From contig AP017605.1 in the NCBI GenBank assembly GCA_002356515.1, positions 5,999,020 through 6,063,019 on the forward strand: a DNA stretch of 64,000 nucleotides, in the 5' to 3' direction. Every line of letters starts with the position of its first letter. The first letter of the stretch is position 1. The position numbers and the translations under genes were made by a program. Below are positions 50,757 through 59,475 of the stretch, in pieces. The DNA comes from Mesorhizobium loti (GTDB lineage: Bacteria > Pseudomonadota > Alphaproteobacteria > Rhizobiales > Rhizobiaceae). Under the pieces are notes generated by a model. The model was not told where the DNA came from and made no database searches. It saw only the letters and a program-made list of their open reading frames with translations.

Positions 50757-52883
50757 TCAATACGCCAGCCTCTTCAAATCCTGCTGCAGCTTGGTGCCGC
50801 CACGCCGCTTCTGGATCGGCGTCTGCAGGCTGATCTTGCCGCGGAATTCGTCGGTCACCTCGCGCGCTTCATTGATATCACGCACGACATGGGGGCGGAT
50901 GAAGATAATCAATTCGGTGCGCCTGATGGAATCGTCTTTCTGCTTGAACGCATTGCCGAGAATCGGGATGTCGCCGAGGATCGGCACCTGGCTGCGGTCG
51001 ACATTGTTGTTCTGCTGGATGAGGCCGCCCAGTGCCAGGCTTTCGCCGTCATTGACCAGCACGCGCGTCTGGATCTTGCGCTGCTGGATGGTTGGCGAGT
51101 CGATATCGGAACTTTCCGTCTTGGTGACGTTGCTGACCTCCTGCTGGATGTCGAGCATGACCCTGCCGGCATTGTTGATGCGCGGCGTCACCGTCAGGAT
51201 GACGCCGGTATCCTTCATCTGGACCGAGTTGATGATCGGTGCGCTGCCGTTGCCGGTGTCCTGCGATTGCTGGGTCAGGATCGGCACCTGGTCGCCGACC
51301 TGCAAGATCGCCTTCTGGTTGTTGAGCGCCATGATGGTCGGCGCCGAGATGACATTGACGTCGGTGATCTTGGAAAGCGCGTTCAACGTCACCTGGATGT
51401 TGTCGGTTGCATAGCTCCAGTTGAAGCCGGGCAGGGTGGCCGCCGCGGCGGCCTTGGCCACGTCCGTCACGGAGACCTTGGTGCCGCCATTCTCGAAGAA
51501 CCAGCGCAGGCCGTATTTCAAATCGTCGTTGAGCGTGACTTCGGCGATCACCGCTTCCAGCATGACTTGCGTCGGCAGCACGTCGACCTTGGTCAGGATC
51601 TGCTCGATGCGTTCATAGTCGCGCGCCGTGGTCTGGATCAGCAGCGCATTGTTCTCGACATCGGCGACCACAGTGGCATGGGCGGGCGCCTCATTGTCTT
51701 GCTGAGGCAGCGAGGGCGAGGGCCCGGTCAGCGGCGCCGGCGTGACGCCGTCCGACTGCATGGCGATCGGCGTCTGGTCGGGCGACACGTTCGAGCCGCC
51801 CGATTGGCCTTCGGTCTTCACCGTGGTGCCGAGAACCGAGCTCAGCACCGCGGCCAGTTCCTTGGCCGGCCGGTTCTGGATCTGGTAGACGAAGAGCTGA
51901 CTTTCATTGGTCTCGGCCAGCTTGTCGAGCTTGTTGATCCAGGTTGCGGCGCGCGCCAGATAGGCCGGGCGCGAGGTGATCACCAGCACCGAATTCAGCC
52001 TGTCATTGGGGATGAACTGGATGAGCTTGGCGCCTGGCCCTTCCTTGGTGCCGAAGATCGAATCGAGCTCGGCGGCAACCGCTTCCGGCTTCGAGGTCTT
52101 CAACGGATGCAGCGCCACCGACATGCCGCGCATCCAGTCGACATCGAACACCGAAACCGCTTCCCGGATGGCATTGAGGTCGCTGTCGCTGCCGGCGACG
52201 GTGATGATGTTGCGGGTGGAATCGACGCGCAGCACCGAGCCCTGGCGGGTGATCGGTTCGAGAATGGTCTTCATCTCGTCGGCGGCGATGAATTGCAGCT
52301 GCAGCACCTGCACCTTGACGCCGGGGCCGGACGGCGAGGTCGAGGGCACGCTGACCGGCGGCGTCGAGGCCATGATCTCCGACAGCGGCACGATCTGGTA
52401 GGTGCCGGCGCGGCTGGTGATGCCGGCGGCGTTCACCGCCAGCGCCGATTGCAGGATGTCGACCAGCGCATCCTTCGACACCGGCTGCGAGGTCTGCAGC
52501 GTCACCGTGCCTTGCACGCGCGGGTCGACGATGTAGTTGAGGTGCAGCGCGTCCCCCAGCACCGCCTTGGCCGCGTCGGCGATCGGCGCATTGACCAGAT
52601 TGAGCTCGAACTTGCCGGAGCCGTCGCTCGTCACCTTCGTGACCGGCGCGCCCGACGACACGAACTGGCCCGTGCCCTGATACTGCGCGCCATTGAAGCG
52701 TTGTGCGGCGCCCGCCGCCGAGGTGATGGTGGCAGGCCCTGTATAGCCCGACCGCAGTGGCGAATTCTTGGCGTGCAGGCTGTCGATGGTCTCGGTGAAA
52801 AAGTCCTTGCCCGGCGCGGAGGTGCAGCCGGCAACAGCCAGCAGCGTGAACAACACGACGCAATGACTCGGCTTGCTCGACAT
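50757..52883 (-). CDS. gspD: Type II secretion outer-membrane secretin GspD
   Basis: 708 residues. Lipoprotein signal 'LFTLLAVAGCTSAPG' (lipobox AGC, Cys ~20). N-terminal N0 domain ('LNLVNAPIADAAKAVLGDAL'), repeated N1-N3 domains, and the C-terminal secretin barrel ('QVMLEAVIAEVTLNDDLKYG', 'VPILGDIPILGNAFKQ'). Being a lipoprotein, it may insert without a separate pilotin. A Gly/Ser/Pro-rich insertion lies in the N3 loop at ~365-405. First gene of the minus-strand gspD-O-G group. Confidence 0.93.
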   Translation of the reverse strand: MSSKPSHCVVLFTLLAVAGCTSAPGKDFFTETIDSLHAKNSPLRSGYTGPATITSAAGAAQRFNGAQYQGTGQFVSSGAPVTKVTSDGSGKFELNLVNAPIADAAKAVLGDALHLNYIVDPRVQGTVTLQTSQPVSKDALVDILQSALAVNAAGITSRAGTYQIVPLSEIMASTPPVSVPSTSPSGPGVKVQVLQLQFIAADEMKTILEPITRQGSVLRVDSTRNIITVAGSDSDLNAIREAVSVFDVDWMRGMSVALHPLKTSKPEAVAAELDSIFGTKEGPGAKLIQFIPNDRLNSVLVITSRPAYLARAATWINKLDKLAETNESQLFVYQIQNRPAKELAAVLSSVLGTTVKTEGQSGGSNVSPDQTPIAMQSDGVTPAPLTGPSPSLPQQDNEAPAHATVVADVENNALLIQTTARDYERIEQILTKVDVLPTQVMLEAVIAEVTLNDDLKYGLRWFFENGGTKVSVTDVAKAAAAATLPGFNWSYATDNIQVTLNALSKITDVNVISAPTIMALNNQKAILQVGDQVPILTQQSQDTGNGSAPIINSVQMKDTGVILTVTPRINNAGRVMLDIQQEVSNVTKTESSDIDSPTIQQRKIQTRVLVNDGESLALGGLIQQNNNVDRSQVPILGDIPILGNAFKQKDDSIRRTELIIFIRPHVVRDINEAREVTDEFRGKISLQTPIQKRRGGTKLQQDLKRLAY

Positions 52884-52934
52884 CCACCCGATTCCCCTAG
52901 GGGTTCAGTCTAGGGCTTCTTGCAGGCCGATGTC

Positions 52935-53109
52935 GGGAATGATGGGTGTGTTTGGGGTCTATCCACAGGGTAGGTGGGGAGGAGTGTGCGCGATTTGGAG
53001 ATCGATGCAGGATGCTTGCGCTCCTGCACAGGAGCGCGATCTCGGTCGGGACTGCTTTGGGCTATCGAGGCGGCGTGGCCTTGGTCTGGGAGGTTAAGCC
53101 GACATTGCG
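52935..53109. repeat. Repeat unit A, degenerate copy
   Basis: This ~175-bp non-coding stretch shares blocks such as GTTTGGGGTCTATCCAC, GAGTGTGCGCGATTTG and AAGCCGACATTGCG with the unit at 57013-57207, and like it runs straight into the GTGCACTGTCACCGTAATT repeat. The upstream part of the gap (52884-52934) holds the gspD promoter side. No gene is seen in 52884-53189. Confidence 0.7.
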
Positions 53110-53133
53110 AAAAAGTGCACTGTCACCGTAATT
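53110..53133 (+). repeat. RAYT-associated repeat, copy R1
   Basis: AAAAAGTGCACTGTCACCGTAATT in forward orientation. It marks the left edge of the first cassette (53134-54003), whose right edge is the inverted copy at 54004-54030. Confidence 0.85.
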
Positions 53134-53189
53134 CCTCCCTAACAATGGTGAGCAGAGAACAGTTTACCCCCGCAGGTGAGCCATTGCTT

Positions 53190-53942
53190 TTATCTTTCGG
53201 TTCCTAGAACCTCATGCCGAGCGAGATACCAGCGAACGGGTTCCGTCTGGTATCCCATATCGAAAACCTGCTGCATCCGCTCCATGCAGCCCGTCTCGTC
53301 GCCAGAAGCTCGGTGCAACGCGCCATCGTGAAACAATGCAACTCCGAGCGCTAACTTGATTGAACGATTGCTAGCAGCAGTCCGGAAGGCCGCAGCCAGG
53401 CTTCGCTCCTTCGTCGCACCTTCTAGCGCATCCTCGAAGGCGATCTCGCCCAGCATTTGTTTCACGGTCTGGGCCGGGTAGCGGAACAGTGTCGGGCGCT
53501 TGTTGTATTTAACGTTCAGCTTGCGTAGGTATTCAAGCGCGTAGTCGCGGCTGGCATCGTCACCCATCGTCAGGGCCATGTAGTGCAGGACAAGTCCGAA
53601 GGTCGCACCACCAGCCAGGTCGGGCGCCATGCCTATTGATCGATCCATAATGCCAGCACACAGCTCACGAGTGAGCTCGATCGCCCGAGCGCGATCATCA
53701 AGACACCAATAAGCTGCGCCTATTTGAAGTTGTTGTCCTGGAGCATCCGGAGTGTTCTTCTTCTGATAGGAATCTACTTGGTACAGAAGAGGAAGCGCTG
53801 CTGTATAATCTCCTATCCCGCAATAGGATTTTGCCAATCCATCGATCCACCCAATATCATTCGGCTCTACAGCGATTATCTCTCTAAATGCTCTGACCGC
53901 TTCGTCAAAGCGACCTGCTAAAAGGAGAACAAGTGCTGACAT
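53190..53942 (-). CDS. TPR-like protein, candidate immunity protein of a lost Rhs toxin
   Basis: 250 residues, predicted helical with tetratricopeptide-like pairs: 'GRFDEAVRAFREIIAVEPND' and 'GIGDYTAALPLLYQVDSYQ', then 'LDDRARAIELTRELCAGI'. No signal peptide. Its ATG overlaps (TAATG) the stop of a short frame encoding an Rhs YD-repeat remnant, so it lies where an Rhs immunity gene or toxin-linked gene would be. GC is lower than the gsp genes. Function is unknown; immunity is inferred from place only. Confidence 0.55.
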   Translation of the reverse strand: MSALVLLLAGRFDEAVRAFREIIAVEPNDIGWIDGLAKSYCGIGDYTAALPLLYQVDSYQKKNTPDAPGQQLQIGAAYWCLDDRARAIELTRELCAGIMDRSIGMAPDLAGGATFGLVLHYMALTMGDDASRDYALEYLRKLNVKYNKRPTLFRYPAQTVKQMLGEIAFEDALEGATKERSLAAAFRTAASNRSIKLALGVALFHDGALHRASGDETGCMERMQQVFDMGYQTEPVRWYLARHEVLGTER

Positions 53943-54003
53943 TAGAAATCAAACCCTCCTCGGATATTCCCGTTAGCATCATAGGTTACCGCGCGGACGG
54001 AAG
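53942..54003 (-). pseudogene. Rhs YD-repeat remnant cut by the RAYT repeat
   Basis: On the minus strand this short piece reads 'VRAVTYDANGNIRGGFDF' then stop. TYDANGNI is a canonical Rhs YD-repeat motif. Upstream it meets the repeat at 54004-54030, beyond which lies the transposase gene, so the rest of the Rhs gene is missing. Confidence 0.7.
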
Positions 54004-54747
54004 AATTACGGTGACAGTGCACTAATTTTTCCCCGTCGGCCCCGCTTTCCCGGTTTCACGGCTCTTCCAGTTTGCGCGGCAATCCGGCCCAAAAAAGCTT
54101 CATCCCCCACCGGCCGGCCAATGCTCTCGGCCTTGCGCAGCGCGTCGAAGGCCGCGACATCCGTCTCGACCAAATCGAACAGTCCGCTCGACGATGGCAG
54201 GCGATCCCGCATCGGCTGCGGATCGGTAACGCCATCGGGCTCGCCCGTGAGATGCGCGCGAGCGCTTGACCAGGGCCAATCCGCCACCTGTTTCACCAGC
54301 CCCGCGCGGACCGGATTCAGTACGACATACCGTACCGCCGACAAGAGGTGGTCCTCGTCCATCGCAACGGCGCCGAAGCGCCCTTGCCAGAAGTGTCCGG
54401 TTTTCTTCTGTCTCGCATGGATGATGCCGGCATAGGTGCGATGCACCTTGGCGAGCGCGCGCCGGAGACCGTCCGGATCGGTCGGCGTCAGGATCAGGTG
54501 CACATGGTTCGGCATCAGGCACCATGCCCAGATGCCGACATTGGCGGCGCGGCAATGCTCGACCAGCAGGGTCTTGTAGAGCGCGTAGTCCCTGGGCGTG
54601 AAAAACACCTTGGCGCGCCCGTTGCCGCGCTGCGTCACGTGGTGCGGCAGACCGGGAACGACAATGCGAGCAAGGCGAGCCATGCGGCTAATCTACACTC
54701 TGCGATAGCCAGGCGAACAGCGTAAAAAGTGCACTGTCACCGTAATT
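54004..54747 (-). mobile_element. RAYT element 1 (single-gene REP-type transposon-like unit)
   Basis: About 744 bp bounded by inverted copies of the same repeat: AATTACGGTGACAGTGCAC followed by TAATTTTT at 54004-54030 and AAAAAGTGCACTGTCACCG followed by TAATT at 54724-54747. It carries one RAYT gene. Element 2 at 56269-57012 is nearly identical and in the same orientation. Confidence 0.85.
54006..54683 (-). CDS. REP-associated tyrosine transposase (RAYT, Y1 family), copy 1
   Basis: 225 residues, starting [19 protein letters not shown] motif His60/His62 in '[11 protein letters not shown]' and the putative catalytic Tyr119 in '[15 protein letters not shown]' are intact, so it may be active. 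RAYTs cut single-stranded DNA at REP palindromes and are usually single-copy domesticated enzymes; here there are two. The stop codon and the last codons (ISALSP) lie inside the flanking repeat. The basic tail 'KPGKRGRRGK' may bind DNA. Confidence 0.9.
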   Translation of the reverse strand: MARLARIVVPGLPHHVTQRGNGRAKVFFTPRDYALYKTLLVEHCRAANVGIWAWCLMPNHVHLILTPTDPDGLRRALAKVHRTYAGIIHARQKKTGHFWQGRFGAVAMDEDHLLSAVRYVVLNPVRAGLVKQVADWPWSSARAHLTGEPDGVTDPQPMRDRLPSSSGLFDLVETDVAAFDALRKAESIGRPVGDEAFLGRIAAQTGRAVKPGKRGRRGKISALSP

Positions 54748-54759
54748 CCGTAATCCCCA

Positions 54760-54773
54760 GCACTGTCACCGTA
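54760..54773 (+). repeat. Partial copy of the RAYT-associated repeat (R4)
   Basis: GCACTGTCACCGTA follows the full copy at 54724-54747 after 12 bp. Two tandem copies at this edge suggest a second insertion or a partial duplication. Confidence 0.7.
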
Positions 54774-54797
54774 AAATGCGATTCCGCGATTCGTAGT

Positions 54798-55253
54798 TCA
54801 ACGATTGTCAGAATCAGATGTCCATCCAGAAATAACTCGCTCGATCAGCAAAGTGTCGTTCCAGATACCACGAATTGGCATTTTGCGTTGCTCGGGCGTG
54901 AGATTTTCGACGCGCCACTCCTTCTCACCGTCCCACAGCCACCATACAGAAACCTTTCCAGTGCGAGGGTCGGCAACTCCGTCTCGAAATATAGGAAAAG
55001 CTGCCACCTCGGCCGGTACCGCAACGTTCCCCACAACTGTTACAATACCCTTTGAAACTGCAGACCCTAGAGGAAAAAAGCACGAAAATTGAACGGCGTT
55101 GCTAACGATATCGCCTATCTTCTTCGGGCGAGTTTTATAGATTTTTTCGAAAACCCTTAGGAGGGCGCCATATCTTACATGCTTGTGAGTGTATATGGCG
55201 TAGCATTTTCCAATAGACGTTTGAAATTCAACAACATCTCCAATTTTAACCAT
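54798..55253 (-). CDS. Probable immunity protein for the adjacent Rhs nuclease tip
   Basis: 151 residues, AT-rich relative to the window, starting 13 bp after the Rhs tip gene with GAGG upstream. Begins 'MVKIGDVVEFQTSIGKCYAI'; ends with 'WWLWDGEKEWRVENLTPEQ' and 'RGIWNDTLLIERVISGW'. No signal peptide, as expected for a protein that protects the cytoplasm. Family not securely recognised. Position directly downstream of a toxin tip is the main evidence. Confidence 0.6.
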   Translation of the reverse strand: MVKIGDVVEFQTSIGKCYAIYTHKHVRYGALLRVFEKIYKTRPKKIGDIVSNAVQFSCFFPLGSAVSKGIVTVVGNVAVPAEVAAFPIFRDGVADPRTGKVSVWWLWDGEKEWRVENLTPEQRKMPIRGIWNDTLLIERVISGWTSDSDNR

Positions 55254-55266
55254 CGAATAACCTCGG

Positions 55267-56208
55267 TTAAAAGCCTGGGTAGCCCACGCTTTTTACTATG
55301 TCAACGCCGCGTGTTCCCACTTGTCCGTACGCCGGATTCGATTTTGCGATGCTGTTGATTTCATTCATCAAGCTTCCTCCACTCGTTGGCAGCCCATGAT
55401 GATCGATCAGCGCTTGTTCCGCAAGCCTTGCGTCCATTCTAGTTAGATTCGAAAGGCCAGGTATTTCTGAAATACTGATTCCTTTTCCACGAAGATGCTC
55501 AGCAGCACGACGAACCAAATCATTTGTTATTCCGACGTATTTGGTAACACCAGAAGCATCAACCGCTTGATATACGCTAGTTGATCCTCCTGTATAAACA
55601 GACGTCGCTGCATCTTTCAGTGCCGTCTTTCCACCAAATAAAGCAACTCCTACAAAGACCCCAGCTCTTATAGGTGCAACGCCAGGCATGAGCCCAAATA
55701 CACCATCAGCGTTGTCCACTTTTCCTGAAGCGCTGAGTTCACTCTGGCGAGCCACTTCATCGGATACTTTCGGGCTTAGACGTTCATATGGGTCCCTGTC
55801 CGCATTGAAGAAGTCCCGCCGACCCGTCCTTATCGCCTCCGCGCGGGCTTCAATCTCGGCCCGCTCGTGGTCAGCTTTTTGCGCTGCTGCCCTGGCTTCG
55901 GCGGCCGGGCCCGCAATACCTGTAGCATGCCCGTTCTGATCACTCTTGTTGACCGGATCATTCTGCGCATATGCATATCGGTTCGTCCCAACGCCCGGCA
56001 GCGTCGGATCCCAATCATCCGGCGAGACAAACCGCCCCAGCACCGGATCCATGTACCGCGCGTTGAGATACAGCAGTCCGGTCTCGGCATCGAAGCGCTC
56101 GCCTATATAACCCTTTTGCGTCTGGAAGCCGGTGTTGAGGCTCTCGCCATAGGTGGCGTAGGTGGTGCCTTCGACCACCGCGCCCGACATGTCGGTGACC
56201 AGGCGCAC
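55267..56208 (-). CDS. 5'-truncated Rhs core fragment with GIY-YIG-like nuclease toxin tip
   Basis: 313 residues from a GTG, with the Rhs frame running a further ~20 codons upstream to the repeat at 56269 ('[14 protein letters not shown]'). Residues 1-90 are Rhs core: '[20 protein letters not shown]', '[16 protein letters not shown]', '[18 protein letters not shown]'. The tip (~205-275) has GIY-YIG/URI features: Tyr213, 'KYVGITND' (Tyr224), Arg233-234, His238 and Glu264 in '[12 protein letters not shown]'. It lacks the delivery part of an Rhs protein, so it is an orphan tip that could be recombined into a full Rhs gene elsewhere. Confidence 0.75.
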
Positions 56209-56268
56209 CGAGGCCAGATGCTCGCGATGCAGGAAGTATTTGGTCGTGCCGACGACCTTGATGTCGGT

Positions 56269-57012
56269 AATTACGGTGACAGTGCACTAATTTTTCTCCG
56301 TCGGCCTCGCTTTCTCGGTTTCACGGCTCTTCCGGTTTGTGCGGCAATCCGGCCCAAAAAGGCTTCATCTCCAACCGGTCGGCCGATGCTCTCGGCCTTG
56401 CGCAGCGCGTCGAAGGCAGCGACATCCGTCTCGAGCAAATCGAACAGCCCGGTAGACGATGGCAGACGATCCCTTATTGGTTGCAGATCCGTAACGCCAT
56501 CGGGCTCGCCCGTCAGATGCGCGCGAGCGCTTGACCAGGGCCAGTCCGCCGCCTGCTTCACCAGCCCCGCGCGCACCGGATTCAGTCCAAGATACCGTAC
56601 CGCCGACAAGAGGTGATCCTCGTCCATCGCGACGGCGCCGAAGCGGCCTTGCCAGAAATGTCCGGTTTTCTTCTGTCTCGCATGGATGATGCCGGCATAG
56701 GTGCGATGCACCTTGGCGAGCGCGCGCCGGAGACCGTCCGGATCGGTCGGCGTCAGGATCAGGTGCACATGGTTCGGCATCAGGCACCATGCCCAGATGC
56801 CGACATTGGCGGCGCGGCAATGCTCGACCAGCAGGGTCTTGTAGAGCGCGTAGTCCCTGGGCGTGAAAAACACCTTGGCGCGCCCGTTGCCGCGCTGCGT
56901 CACGTGGTGCGGCAGACCGGGAACGACAATGCGAGCAAGGCGAGCCATGCGGTCAGTCTACACGCGGCCATAGCCAGGCGGACAGGGTAAAAAGTGCACT
57001 GTCACCGTAATT
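56269..57012 (-). mobile_element. RAYT element 2
   Basis: About 744 bp with the same terminal inverted repeats as element 1: 56269-56295 and 56989-57012. The left end cuts the Rhs core frame of the cassette 54774-56268. The right end abuts repeat unit A'. Near identity to element 1 implies recent duplication or gene conversion. Confidence 0.85.
56271..56948 (-). CDS. REP-associated tyrosine transposase (RAYT, Y1 family), copy 2
   Basis: 225 residues, the same length as copy 1 and differing at only about a dozen positions, such as '[15 protein letters not shown]' for '[15 protein letters not shown]' and '[10 protein letters not shown]' for 'KPGKRGRRGK'. His60, His62 and Tyr119 are kept. Its stop is again inside the flanking repeat. 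Most differences lie in the C-terminal half while the first ~115 residues are identical, suggesting partial gene conversion. Confidence 0.9.
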
Positions 57013-57233
57013 CGAGAATGATGGCGGTGTTTGGGGTCTATCCACGGGGTAGGTGGTGGGCGAGGCTGCAGGGGTGAGGAGAAGAGTGTGCGCGATTTGA
57101 GGATCGATGGACGCGTGCTACTCCAGCAGGGGGGTATGATTTTATCCGAGACGGCTTGGACTACAGAGGCGGGGTGGCTTGGCCTGGGAGGCCAAGCCGA
57201 CATCGCGAAAAAAGTGCACTGTCACCGTTATTC
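57013..57233. repeat. Repeat unit A', full copy, ending in repeat R7
   Basis: Homologous to 52935-53133. It contains a perfect 9-bp stem, GGCTTGGCC at 57176-57184 with GGCCAAGCC at 57190-57198, which is degenerate in the first copy. It ends with AAAAAAGTGCACTGTCACCG then TTATT at ~57208-57233 (one change from the other repeats). No open frame of protein character. Confidence 0.75.
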
Positions 57234-57282
57234 TACCTCAGATTTATCAAAAACAAATAAAAGTGACACTGTCGACACAAAA

Positions 57283-57822
57283 TCAAGCCGCAGCGAACCG
57301 GAGTCCTGTTAGCTTATTGGAATCGTATATATTTTTAAAATTATCAGAAACAATTATGTCGAACCTGGCGACAACTGGATCGTTCATTCTAAATATGTCA
57401 AGTTCTGTCGAAAATCCATTTTTCAATTTGAGCTCGAAAATCCTAGATATACTACCGTCGTCGTATTTTTCATAAGACGAAGTTAAAAAATCGAATCCGT
57501 CCACTTCATCCATAGGAACATATATTTCTATATCGTACTTGTCAGTTTTTGCTGCGTAGAATTTGTGTCGGCTCTGTAAAATTATCGCCCCAAATAGCTC
57601 GAACACTTCGCGCCTTGCAAAAAAGCCACTCCTTATAGAAGTCGCCACGAAATCTCCGATAGGGAGGGGACGCTGTTTGTCAAAGCGGAATTGCAACTTG
57701 CTTTGGTCGATATCCCTCGCACCTTCCATTCCTAGAAAATCTTGCGGTCCATAGTCATTCCCCCAATCACTAAGAATGGCATAATTTCTGGAATCTTGCT
57801 GGGTCCGCCAATATAACATCAT
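57283..57822 (-). CDS. AT-rich orphan protein, possible Imm11/DUF1629-type immunity protein
   Basis: 179 residues in clearly AT-richer DNA than its surroundings. Begins 'MMLYWRTQQDSRNYAIL'; contains 'GDFVATSIRSGFFARREVFE' and ends 'IVSDNFKNIYDSNKLTGLRF'. The general layout (a middle 'S-R----F' segment and a terminal GLRF) recalls Imm11/DUF1629 immunity proteins, but I cannot confirm it. It lies alone between repeats R7 and R8, with no toxin gene beside it. Confidence 0.5.
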   Translation of the reverse strand: MMLYWRTQQDSRNYAILSDWGNDYGPQDFLGMEGARDIDQSKLQFRFDKQRPLPIGDFVATSIRSGFFARREVFELFGAIILQSRHKFYAAKTDKYDIEIYVPMDEVDGFDFLTSSYEKYDDGSISRIFELKLKNGFSTELDIFRMNDPVVARFDIIVSDNFKNIYDSNKLTGLRFAAA

Positions 57823-57863
57823 AGCCCCTTAGAGTTGAGTTCTACCAGCGTCGACGTCGTTCG

Positions 57864-57889
57864 AATTACGGTGACAGTGCACTAATTTT
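57864..57889 (-). repeat. RAYT-associated repeat, copy R8
   Basis: AATTACGGTGACAGTGCAC followed by TAATTTT, in inverted orientation. The next bases (CCCTCGCCGGCCTC) resemble the 3' end of the RAYT genes after R2 and R5, so this may be the stub of a third, deleted RAYT element. Confidence 0.8.
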
Positions 57890-57940
57890 CCCTCGCCGGC
57901 CTCCTGCTGGAGGATATCCAGATCCCGAAGCGGGGCTAGT

Positions 57941-59263
57941 CTAGTCAGGTTGACGGTCCGCGGCCGGGCGGCGGCCGTCGATCCACAGCGCAAGCAATGT
58001 GCAGGCCGCGCCCGAGAGCAGATAGGCGCCGGCGGCGATGAGGCCGAAATTACCGGCCAACAGCAGGGCGGCGAGCGGCGCGAAGCCGGCGCCGAACATC
58101 CAGGCCAGATCCGAGGTTATCGCCGAGCCGGTGTAGCGGTACTGCCGGGAGAAGCTCGACGCGACGACGCCCGACGATTGCCCGAAACTCAATCCCAGCA
58201 GGATGAAGCCCAGCACCATGAACAGGGCCTCGCCGACGGCGCCGCCATCCAGGAGCTGAGGGGCAAAGCCGCTGAAGGTCGCGATGGCGATCGCCGAACC
58301 GCCGAGCAGCGCACGGCGTCCGACGCGATCGGCCAACGGGCCCGATGCGACGATGGCCGCGATGCCAAACAGCGCGCTCACCGCCTCGATCATCAGGAAG
58401 CGTGCCGGCCCCTCATTGGTGAACAGGAACACCCAGGAAAGCGGAAACACCGTCACCATGTGGAACAGGGCGAAACTCGCCAGCGGCGCGAAGGCGCCGA
58501 CGACGACATTGTGGCCCTCGGCCCGGATCGTGTCCCTGATGCGCGTTGGCTGCAGGTCGCCGCTCTCGTACAGTTTCGAGAATTCGGGCGTGACGACGAT
58601 GCGAAGCCTGGCGAACAGGGCCACGACATTGATGGCGAAGGCGACGAAGAAGGGATAGCGCCAGCCCCAGGAAAAGAAGTCGTCGGCCGACAGATTGGCG
58701 ACGAAGAAGGCGAAGAGGGAGCTTGCCACGATGAGGCCGATTGGCGCGCCAAGTTGCGGGATCATGGCATAGAAGCCGCGTCGATTCTGCGGCGCGTTCA
58801 GGGCCAGCAGCGAGGGCAGTCCATCCCATGTTCCGCCAAGCGCCAGCCCCTGGCCGATGCGGGCAAGCGCCAAAAGCCACACCGCGACCGCACCGATGTC
58901 GCCATAGGCCGGCAGGAACGCAATGGCGACGGTCGACGTGCCGAGCAGGAACAGCGCGATCGTCAGTTTCGCGCCGCGCCCATAGGCGCGGTCGATCGCC
59001 ATGAACAGAACCGAGCCGAACGGGCGCGCGACGAAGGCCAGCGCGAAGATGCAGAAGGAATAGAGCGTGCCGACGAGCGGGTCGTGCGTCGGAAACACCA
59101 GCTTGGGGAACACGATGACGGAGGCGATCGCATAGACGAAGAAGTCGAAGAATTCCGACGTCCTGCCGACGATCACGCCGACCGCTATATCGCCGGCGCT
59201 GACCTGGCCATGATGCGAGCCGATCAGCTCGCTGTTTGTTTCGGCAGTCGAAGTCTGAGCCAT
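57941..59263 (-). CDS. MFS transporter, metabolite:H+ symporter (MHS) type
   Basis: 440 residues from ATG 59263, twelve predicted spans. 'GRTSEFFDFFVYAIASVIVF' at TM1 and 'FARPFGSVLFMAIDRAYGRG' in the TM2-3 loop are MHS-family signatures (organic acid or osmolyte symporters such as ShiA/ProP). An upstream in-frame extension is not protein-like. Divergent from cyoA, with a 212-bp gap that would hold both promoters. Substrate unknown. Confidence 0.83.
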   Translation of the reverse strand: MAQTSTAETNSELIGSHHGQVSAGDIAVGVIVGRTSEFFDFFVYAIASVIVFPKLVFPTHDPLVGTLYSFCIFALAFVARPFGSVLFMAIDRAYGRGAKLTIALFLLGTSTVAIAFLPAYGDIGAVAVWLLALARIGQGLALGGTWDGLPSLLALNAPQNRRGFYAMIPQLGAPIGLIVASSLFAFFVANLSADDFFSWGWRYPFFVAFAINVVALFARLRIVVTPEFSKLYESGDLQPTRIRDTIRAEGHNVVVGAFAPLASFALFHMVTVFPLSWVFLFTNEGPARFLMIEAVSALFGIAAIVASGPLADRVGRRALLGGSAIAIATFSGFAPQLLDGGAVGEALFMVLGFILLGLSFGQSSGVVASSFSRQYRYTGSAITSDLAWMFGAGFAPLAALLLAGNFGLIAAGAYLLSGAACTLLALWIDGRRPAADRQPD

Positions 59264-59475
59264 CTTATCCGTCGCCACCGCGTGGAATGAACTGTCCGGA
59301 ACCCGATTCTGGGGATTCCCCAAGGGTTCTATTGTGCACTGCACACTGCGCCAAAGCCATGCCGGCTGGGCATTGGACAAATTGTCCAATGTTGCCGCGC
59401 CGCCGCGAGCAGTAGCCCTTGGATCGATACCGCACTGCAACATGAACGGTTGCCGCGGTCCATCGAGGGCAGCGT

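Follow-up and report, generated by a model that had tools for sequence, protein, structure and literature searches.

Rhs remnants and small genes alternate with copies of a RAYT element bounded by terminal inverted repeats in Mesorhizobium loti

Introduction

In Escherichia coli, H-rpt, an insertion sequence (IS)-like sequence, lies beside Rhs cores and displaced tips in an arrangement similar to that of the locus described here, but it is a DDE-type element and not a REP-associated tyrosine transposase (RAYT; REP, repetitive extragenic palindrome). Tip swapping and the pile-up of orphan immunity genes in Rhs and type VI secretion system (T6SS) loci were ascribed to homologous and rare unaided illegitimate recombination (PMC5361080, in the sections cited here); for T6SS immunity arrays and Rhs, these sections propose displacement by homology-facilitated illegitimate recombination, and they describe transposon disruption in one cluster and no evidence of integrase help. 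Among elements with RAYT-like genes, those of the TIRtron kind have long terminal inverted repeats (TIRs), only some of which share the motif GGGGWSAS, according to the part of PMC3733652 used here; Mesorhizobium is unmentioned in the text of that paper. Here, we describe a 64-kb stretch of the M. loti genome (contig AP017605.1, positions 5,999,020 to 6,063,019; the window hereafter), in which Rhs remnants, small genes and copies of a RAYT element with a 19-bp repeat, R, at its ends follow each other in an array.

We read this array, with a probability of roughly 0.6, as the remnant of an Rhs polymorphic-toxin locus that has lost the front of its toxin gene, and in which displaced tip/immunity modules lie between RAYT/TIR copies, the joints forming at RAYT elements that act as portable homology and as breakpoints.

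Results

The core of the repeat is GTGCACTGTCACCGTAATT (19 bp), R+ being this core and R- its complement. When up to three mismatches were allowed, the window contained seven matches, all within 53115-57882, six of them exact and the one at 57214 with one mismatch, as compared with a mean of 0.02 and a maximum of 1 in 100 shuffles of the window; an eighth, partial copy is given in Table 1. A preliminary description, made from the letters of the window, had reported an array of repeats in alternating orientation at about 53.1-57.9 kb. Pattern search and shuffles confirmed it, with the correction that the + copies begin 5 bp further to the right, the earlier figures having started inside the preceding run of A. 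From left to right the orientations are + - + (+ partial) - + + -, and, as had been proposed, R+...R- pairs flank three cargo blocks, and R-...R+ pairs (54004/54729 and 56269/56994) flank two RAYT genes.

Both of these genes encode proteins of 225 aa on the minus strand and have their stop codon inside R, and in both elements the inverted R- and R+ start 725 bp apart. Copy 1 matched NF047646 with 81.2 bits (cut-off 80), Y1_Tnp with E 3.8e-10 and the structure PDB 4er8 with E 1.5e-9; copy 2 scored 76.1 bits with NF047646, slightly under the cut-off, and PF01797 was above its cut-off in both. Thus, the two proteins have the Y1 transposase core of the RAYT/TnpAREP kind. R does not resemble a GTAG-type REP: it ends with CCGTAATT, without a GT(A/G)G head or a GC-rich hairpin, and its sole palindrome is short (AGTGCACT, by eye). 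Inspection by eye also found no GGGGWSAS motif in R. R forms the terminal inverted repeats of a RAYT/TIR element, and the window elements are built like a TIRtron/TIRYT, with a RAYT-like gene enclosed by TIRs that have no relation to GTAG REPs. No integrase or tyrosine recombinase was found among the six proteins scanned between the gspD-like gene and the MFS transporter gene.

The Rhs pieces of the window are cut where these elements end. Two cargo blocks had been said to carry broken Rhs pieces that stop at a repeat; the remnants are indeed cut at R, but there are three, with ends at 54003, 56268 and 57863. The core fragment of block 2, which together with its tip and a downstream small gene is severed from any main gene, as in displaced tip/immunity arrays, matches 20 places in 17 distinct collected loci (L numbers; genomes are given G numbers) up to 56265-56268, beside the R- at 56269, and the genes at those places continue. 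In 19 of the 20 there is no R within 120 bp, and the exception (L243) is itself a displaced fragment. The fragment in L244 likewise ends at its own R-. Over precisely the segment between its two R edges, the window cassette 57233-57863 aligns at 88% identity with a native module end in G094 (L245:5305-5935), and this match to an intact rhs end identifies 57829-57863 as the remnant of a tip gene.

We read 11 displaced Rhs starts, leaving out L240 as well as L035 and L104, which are probably at or near R. Seven are at an R edge, three at a truncated RAYT (L243, L245 and L247) and one at neither (L242). Three of the seven, aligned to other rhs genes, start exactly at the terminal repeat of the RAYT element (window 56268, L244 and window 57863), and four were placed by sequence alone (window 54003, L016, and L069 and L112 of Bradyrhizobium). 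Open reading frames (ORFs) that fuse part of a RAYT to an Rhs core remnant occur at L245:6678-8354 (559 aa) and L247:5906-6529 (208 aa). When read by hand, four of the seven R-edge joints (window 54003 and 57863, L069:3590, L112:4029) allow R+ to contribute a GTG start codon and, in frame with the Rhs remnant, the residues HCHRN; this may be chance, since the other three are out of frame.

The same layout was found in relatives. In G019, G118, G053, G071, G084 and G094, the order is Rhs gene or remnant, small gene, whole or broken RAYT bounded by R, then an older small gene, in some cases together with an Rhs remnant, and further units of this kind. Homologues of the gspD-like gene, 85-98% identical, adjoin Rhs modules and repeats with differing cargo in G007, G019, G046, G053, G094 and G118; in G007 and G046, the repeats are present and the map contains no RAYT. 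Thus, the strain comparison that the preliminary description had called for shows genomes that differ in their cassettes at one locus, with joints at the repeat, and not one fixed arrangement.

The copies of the RAYT element also bear a trace of exchange with each other. The two genes of the window had been called almost identical, which is fair by their 96% identity in protein and 94.4% in DNA but masks a mosaic: none of the 42 differing positions among 744 falls within one 294-bp run, and 0 of 2000 shuffles reached such a run. The RAYT copies of G094 share an identical run of 264 bp (a 94-N assembly gap left out), and those of Bradyrhizobium L112 one of 249 bp, each again reached in 0 of 2000 shuffles. 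In three of the five arrays compared, perfect runs of 249-294 bp thus sit inside a divergence of 4-6%, and among RAYT pairs from different genomes one reached 2 of 400 shuffles. Conservation of this region lessens the contrast in identity but does not abolish it: between positions 60 and 370, eight copies from other genomes still have 18-41 differences from the window copies. We take the long identical runs as recombination tracts between RAYT copies.

To place these arrays in the genus, we searched 146 Mesorhizobium genomes, that of M. loti included. R with at most one mismatch was present in 65 of them, and the reversed pattern, used as a control, in none. The 258 sites form 132 clusters, and 20 of these are no more than 2.5 kb from an Rhs core, whereas random placement in 7-Mb genomes would give 0.078, an enrichment of about 250-fold that agrees with the link to rhs genes suggested earlier. 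The association is not general, however: the other 112 clusters have no Rhs core at that distance, and 23 of the 69 Rhs cores, which are spread over 36 genomes, are within 2.5 kb of R. The RAYT subfamily (E<=1e-30) is more closely tied to Rhs. It gave 30 matches, fragments counted, in 14 of the 146 genomes, 24 of them at most 5 kb from an Rhs core, in 12 loci and all on the strand of the core. Of the remaining six, three are on a 4.6-kb contig of G018, one is 5.7 kb from a core in G019, and G059 and G086 have one each. A search of plasmids for this RAYT at E 1e-50 gave no match.

For comparison, we examined the first 40, in random order, of the 109 clusters that lie away from Rhs and outside the M. 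loti genome, with genes called by a simple longest-ORF rule. The Rhs core profile matched none of these 40 and none of 20 arbitrary Mesorhizobium regions. The families among their 68 neighbouring genes were mostly ordinary, with Tdi1_C and SMI1/SUKH in addition (best 25 of 30 families in one scan; genes without a match are uncounted). Judged by flanking genes, 14 of the 40 clusters are at response-regulator (7), gspD (2), tadC (1) or phage-toxin (4) sites.

One of these sites lies between convergent response-regulator (RR) and histidine-kinase (HK) genes, which are 37-167 bp apart in empty genomes; we called a site filled when more than 200 bp separated the genes or the kinase was not reached. 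In an unselected set, the 30 best DNA matches with the M. loti genome included, R (at most three mismatches) was found in 10 of 14 filled sites (10 of 13 without G037, where the kinase was not reached) and in 0 of 16 empty ones (Fisher p 3e-5, a value that overstates independence, because the genomes are related). As four filled sites have no R, R is not required to fill the site. Together with 20 genomes picked for having R and 27 picked among those without a listed R, 77 genomes gave 47 filled sites (31 with R; the G113 contig ends after 93 bp) and 30 empty ones (2 with R, G036 and G033, both picked for R). In 16 of 24 filled sites with R, an R+ lies at most 160 bp from the RR end, with its AATT side toward the cargo. 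Fragments of the RR gene end adjoin R elsewhere, inside the array in G008 and G028 and at the gspD site in G053 (L234, L236, L239), from which we infer that cargo carrying R at its edge has passed from site to site. Pfam scans of 25 cargo genes of this site named Imm26, Imm8, DUF4279, DUF1493 and one weak match, with one member each, so most of them are putative immunity genes by likeness and place. The RR-HK pair (L270-L299, L330-L369) is a hotspot for small genes, many of them immunity-like, with and without R.

Beyond the genus, exact copies of R were found in at least 117 stretches of up to 8 kb among the matches listed, mostly titled as Alphaproteobacteria or their genera. Of 65 R-...R+ neighbours in them, 44 are spaced by 38-147 bp, as in dispersed REPIN pairs, 15 by 673-755 bp, and 6 otherwise. 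At least 29 of the listed stretches contain a RAYT, 22 of these outside the 21 stretches that we assigned to Mesorhizobium or to its relative G094. Among the 96 remaining listed stretches, seven have an Rhs core over the TIGR03696 cut-off (three of Bradyrhizobium and one each titled as Novosphingobium, Altererythrobacter, Phenylobacterium and Sphingomonadales), as compared with about 0.04 estimated for the ~0.7 Mb scanned, from 62 core matches in 289 genomes of the class at 3-4 Mb each. The plan of Bradyrhizobium L112 is like that of the window: Rhs, small gene, RAYT, Rhs tip cut at R, small gene, RAYT, small gene. L069 of the same genus has a RAYT and an Rhs remnant, both loci having RAYTs of about 65% identity.

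We also considered whether R marks immunity genes throughout the class. This was not supported: with genes called by the same longest-ORF rule, the Pfam families of 138 repeat neighbours in the at least 117 stretches were ordinary, with no immunity family among the best 25 of 105, although the first member, scanned apart, matched Imm53; a control of 97 distant genes gave one colicin-type DNase among the best 25 of 84 families. Several stretches of one Hyphomicrobiales metagenome-assembled genome (MAG; L031, L033, L063, L091, L094, L107, L120) contain several REPIN-like R-...R+ pairs and no Rhs core, and in this MAG R is spread without Rhs. One exact R is in a record titled as a Clostridia MAG (L045), that is, in another phylum, which may be due to misbinning.

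In the 8.45-Mb M. loti genome itself, R with up to two mismatches is not spread evenly but confined to four places, with 15 copies in total, each place holding tip- or immunity-like genes. Both RAYT genes of this kind and the only Rhs core, the block 2 fragment, are in the window. Inspection of the three other places by eye showed, in L016, an Rhs-like tip end that stops at R- and a small ORF, adjoining a duplicated 3' end of tadC; in L017, an Imm26-like gene; and in L018, SUKH/SMI1-like genes in duplicate next to a phage-like protein of 910 aa. Pooled Pfam scans that included their genes gave Imm26 (best E 1.4e-11) and SMI1_KNR4 (1.4e-13), as values per family and not per member. In L016:7782-8270, two R- copies beside the tip remnant flank a duplicate of the last ~120 codons of tadC. 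In L018:7700-12887, as in L198, L219 and L220, repeats and small genes, SUKH-like or other, come after a phage-like protein of ~830-910 aa; such proteins may be a second, phage-borne class of toxins that uses R.

The features of the window are collected in Table 1. The 333-aa Rhs fragment matched TIGR03696 with E 3.1e-20, and its tip matched GIY-YIG with 20.2 bits, under the Pfam cut-off of 22.6. The 179-aa protein of block 3 matched Imm11 with E 0.031 alone, under the cut-off, but is 83% identical to L245:5346-5882, and the block is homologous to Imm11-like genes adjoining rhs; the other cargo genes are called putative immunity genes by position. Among 61 homologues of the 250-aa TPR protein none is annotated with an immunity name, and the 151-aa protein had no family match in profile scans. 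About 200 bp of the gspD-side flank are repeated inside the array, 52933-53133 being partly duplicated at 57012-57232, and the flank DNA from 57901 onward is also present in relatives.

Table 1. Coordinates of the features in and around the array of the window
Feature	Position	Strand	Remarks
gspD-like secretin gene, left flank	50757..52883	-	recurrent neighbour of Rhs modules
Flank segment	52933..53114		partly copied at 57012-57212, 88-91% identity
R+, exact	53115..53133	+	
Block 1: 250-aa TPR protein, putative immunity gene	53190..53942	-	by position only
Block 1: Rhs-like tip end, ending in VRAVTYDANGNIRGGFDF and a stop	53943..54003	-	starts at R; sequence reading only
RAYT element 1	54004..54747	-	R- 54004-54022, gene 54006-54683, R+ 54729-54747
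Partial R	54760..54774	+	15 nt
Block 2: 151-aa protein 3' of the GIY-YIG-like tip, putative cognate immunity	54798..55253	-	by position only
Block 2: Rhs C-terminal fragment, ~340 bp of core and GIY-YIG-like tip	55267..56268	-	starts at R
RAYT element 2	56269..57012	-	R- 56269-56287, gene 56271-56948, R+ 56994-57012
Copy of gspD-side flank	57013..57212		
R+ with one mismatch	57214..57232	+	
Block 3 cassette	57233..57863	-	last 35 nt of Rhs tip gene (57829-57863) and 179-aa Imm11-like gene (57283-57822)
R- (57864-57882) and 3' end of truncated third RAYT	57863..57901	-	joined to MFS flank; 92% to 3' ends of elements 1 and 2
MFS transporter gene, right flank	57941..59443	-	

Discussion

The order and orientation in which Rhs remnants, small genes and RAYT copies follow each other in the window are fixed, and arrays of this layout with other tips occur both at the same chromosomal site and elsewhere. 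This suggests that the RAYT element helps to splice toxin/immunity arrays together. In the process that we consider, incoming DNA with rhs, tip, immunity gene and RAYT would recombine with the resident locus, on one side through homology of the Rhs core, and on the other through homology in a resident RAYT or through an illegitimate joint at or in a RAYT. This would place the new module first and leave the old tip end, with its immunity gene, behind a RAYT. Repeated rounds would extend the array, and unequal exchange between directly oriented RAYT copies would shorten it. The small genes are probably immunity genes, which would be retained because they protect against toxins of neighbours.

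Several observations weigh against this explanation. The 250-aa and 151-aa cargo genes of the window are called immunity genes by position only, and in one displaced fragment (L242 3169) the start coincides with neither R nor a RAYT. In the genus, 46 of the 69 Rhs cores are more than 2.5 kb from any repeat. The RAYT pair of G118 and two of the three pairs of G019 are without a tract (486-939 of 2000 shuffles), the third G019 pair being marginal (54 of 2000). Moreover, we found no pair of strains that differ, as before and after, by one displacement, and, when the flanks of 102 R-...R+ elements were searched separately in the collected loci, no element-free version of any of them; the flanks matched only second copies of the locus, orthologues still with the element, or sequences within repeats.

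The preliminary description had proposed that RAYT-recognized repeats are breakpoints at which toxin tips and immunity genes are shuffled. The link of R and RAYT to Rhs loci is strong, as the counts for the genus show, but as for shuffling by the transposase, the direct sign that we see is recombination between RAYT copies; as a general breakpoint of tips and immunity genes, R fails on the 112 clusters without a near Rhs core and on the four filled RR-HK sites without R. In its full form, that proposal would have the transposase cut at R and move or splice R-bounded tip/immunity DNA, acting in trans for cassettes without a RAYT. The seven R-edge starts among the 11 would fit it, as would the window cassette that equals the native G094 module end exactly between R edges, the small genes beside R at the RR-HK, tadC and gspD sites, the RR gene end that adjoins R at the gspD site of G053 (L239), and the reported ability of TnpAREP to cleave and rejoin REP DNA (PMC6006769, in the part cited here). 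However, we found no clean empty site for any R+...R- cassette, only 5 of 24 filled RR-HK sites with R have, by our own reading, a facing R+...R- pair around the cargo, and three remnants begin at truncated RAYTs and not at R. Its strong form is further at odds with repeats that adjoin ordinary genes. We therefore regard such shuffling as unlikely. It is likewise doubtful that a RAYT-family transposase was recruited in Alphaproteobacteria as a dedicated splicing system, which would recognize R, set the ends of tip/immunity modules and move them among a few docking sites, namely gspD, the response-regulator gene and tadC.

Alternatively, the elements could be bystanders, RAYT/REPIN insertions that prefer dispensable intergenic DNA, which is plentiful in Rhs/immunity islands, so that old, already displaced tips were interrupted later. 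The ordinary families among the 138 class-wide neighbours (best 25 of 105, at least 117 stretches) and among the 68 neighbours of the 40 non-Rhs clusters speak for such insertion, as do the short R-...R+ spacings, which resemble dispersed REPIN pairs. Insertion of this kind would hardly produce the enrichment of R at Rhs, the concentration of RAYT at Rhs loci in the genus or the fixed strand of RAYT in 24 of 24 cases; nor would it readily lead to the restriction of R to filled RR-HK sites in the unselected set, though the two empty sites picked for R (G036 and G033) do have it. Taken together, these data make mere insertion improbable. That the repeats reflect composition, faulty assembly or chance is practically out of the question, given the absence of the reversed pattern from all 146 genomes, the window shuffles and the presence of R in many independent assemblies. 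We thus return to displacement by recombination at RAYT copies as the reading that we prefer. A repeated element between modules, with recombination tracts and joints, would give tip swapping a definite substrate, and the link to Rhs arrays would give the puzzling RAYT genes a biological setting. RAYT-R arrays make the mechanism of tip/immunity rearrangement testable.

In titles and abstracts, with most subscription journals outside the search, we found no link of RAYTs or REPINs to Rhs or immunity arrays. The locus nevertheless shares traits with several described systems. Orphan immunity arrays of the rAID kind in Bacteroidales, as far as the cited part of PMC12247911 goes, also combine an array of orphan immunity genes with common intergenic motifs and a DNA-processing enzyme, but that enzyme is a predicted tyrosine recombinase, whereas the present array has toxin remnants and, between its modules, repeated copies of a Y1 transposase. 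REPIN/RAYT systems, in the portions of PMC2817692 and PMC6006769 considered here, likewise have a RAYT between inverted repeats, together with short copies in pairs, and the TnpAREP of structure 4er8 is a relative of the window RAYT. In contrast to them, R has few copies (15, far from high copy number) and no GTAG head, several RAYTs occur per locus, and they are tied to Rhs. TIRtrons/TIRYTs are closer: a RAYT-like gene lies between inverted repeats unrelated to GTAG REPs, and the elements are moderately abundant and occur as dimers and clusters; we liken R to their TIRs by description only, and the cited part of PMC3733652 describes no toxin link for them. With the displaced T6SS/Rhs arrays, the locus has in common that the new module precedes the old immunity genes, which are retained (PMC5361080, as excerpted), but here a RAYT lies between the modules and its end is the joint. 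Thus, the type of array is already known from what PMC5361080 describes in the sections cited, the RAYT/TIR elements that lie between the modules as joints make the present locus a variant of it, and the nearest published elements that we found are TIRtrons, as they appear in the cited part of PMC3733652.

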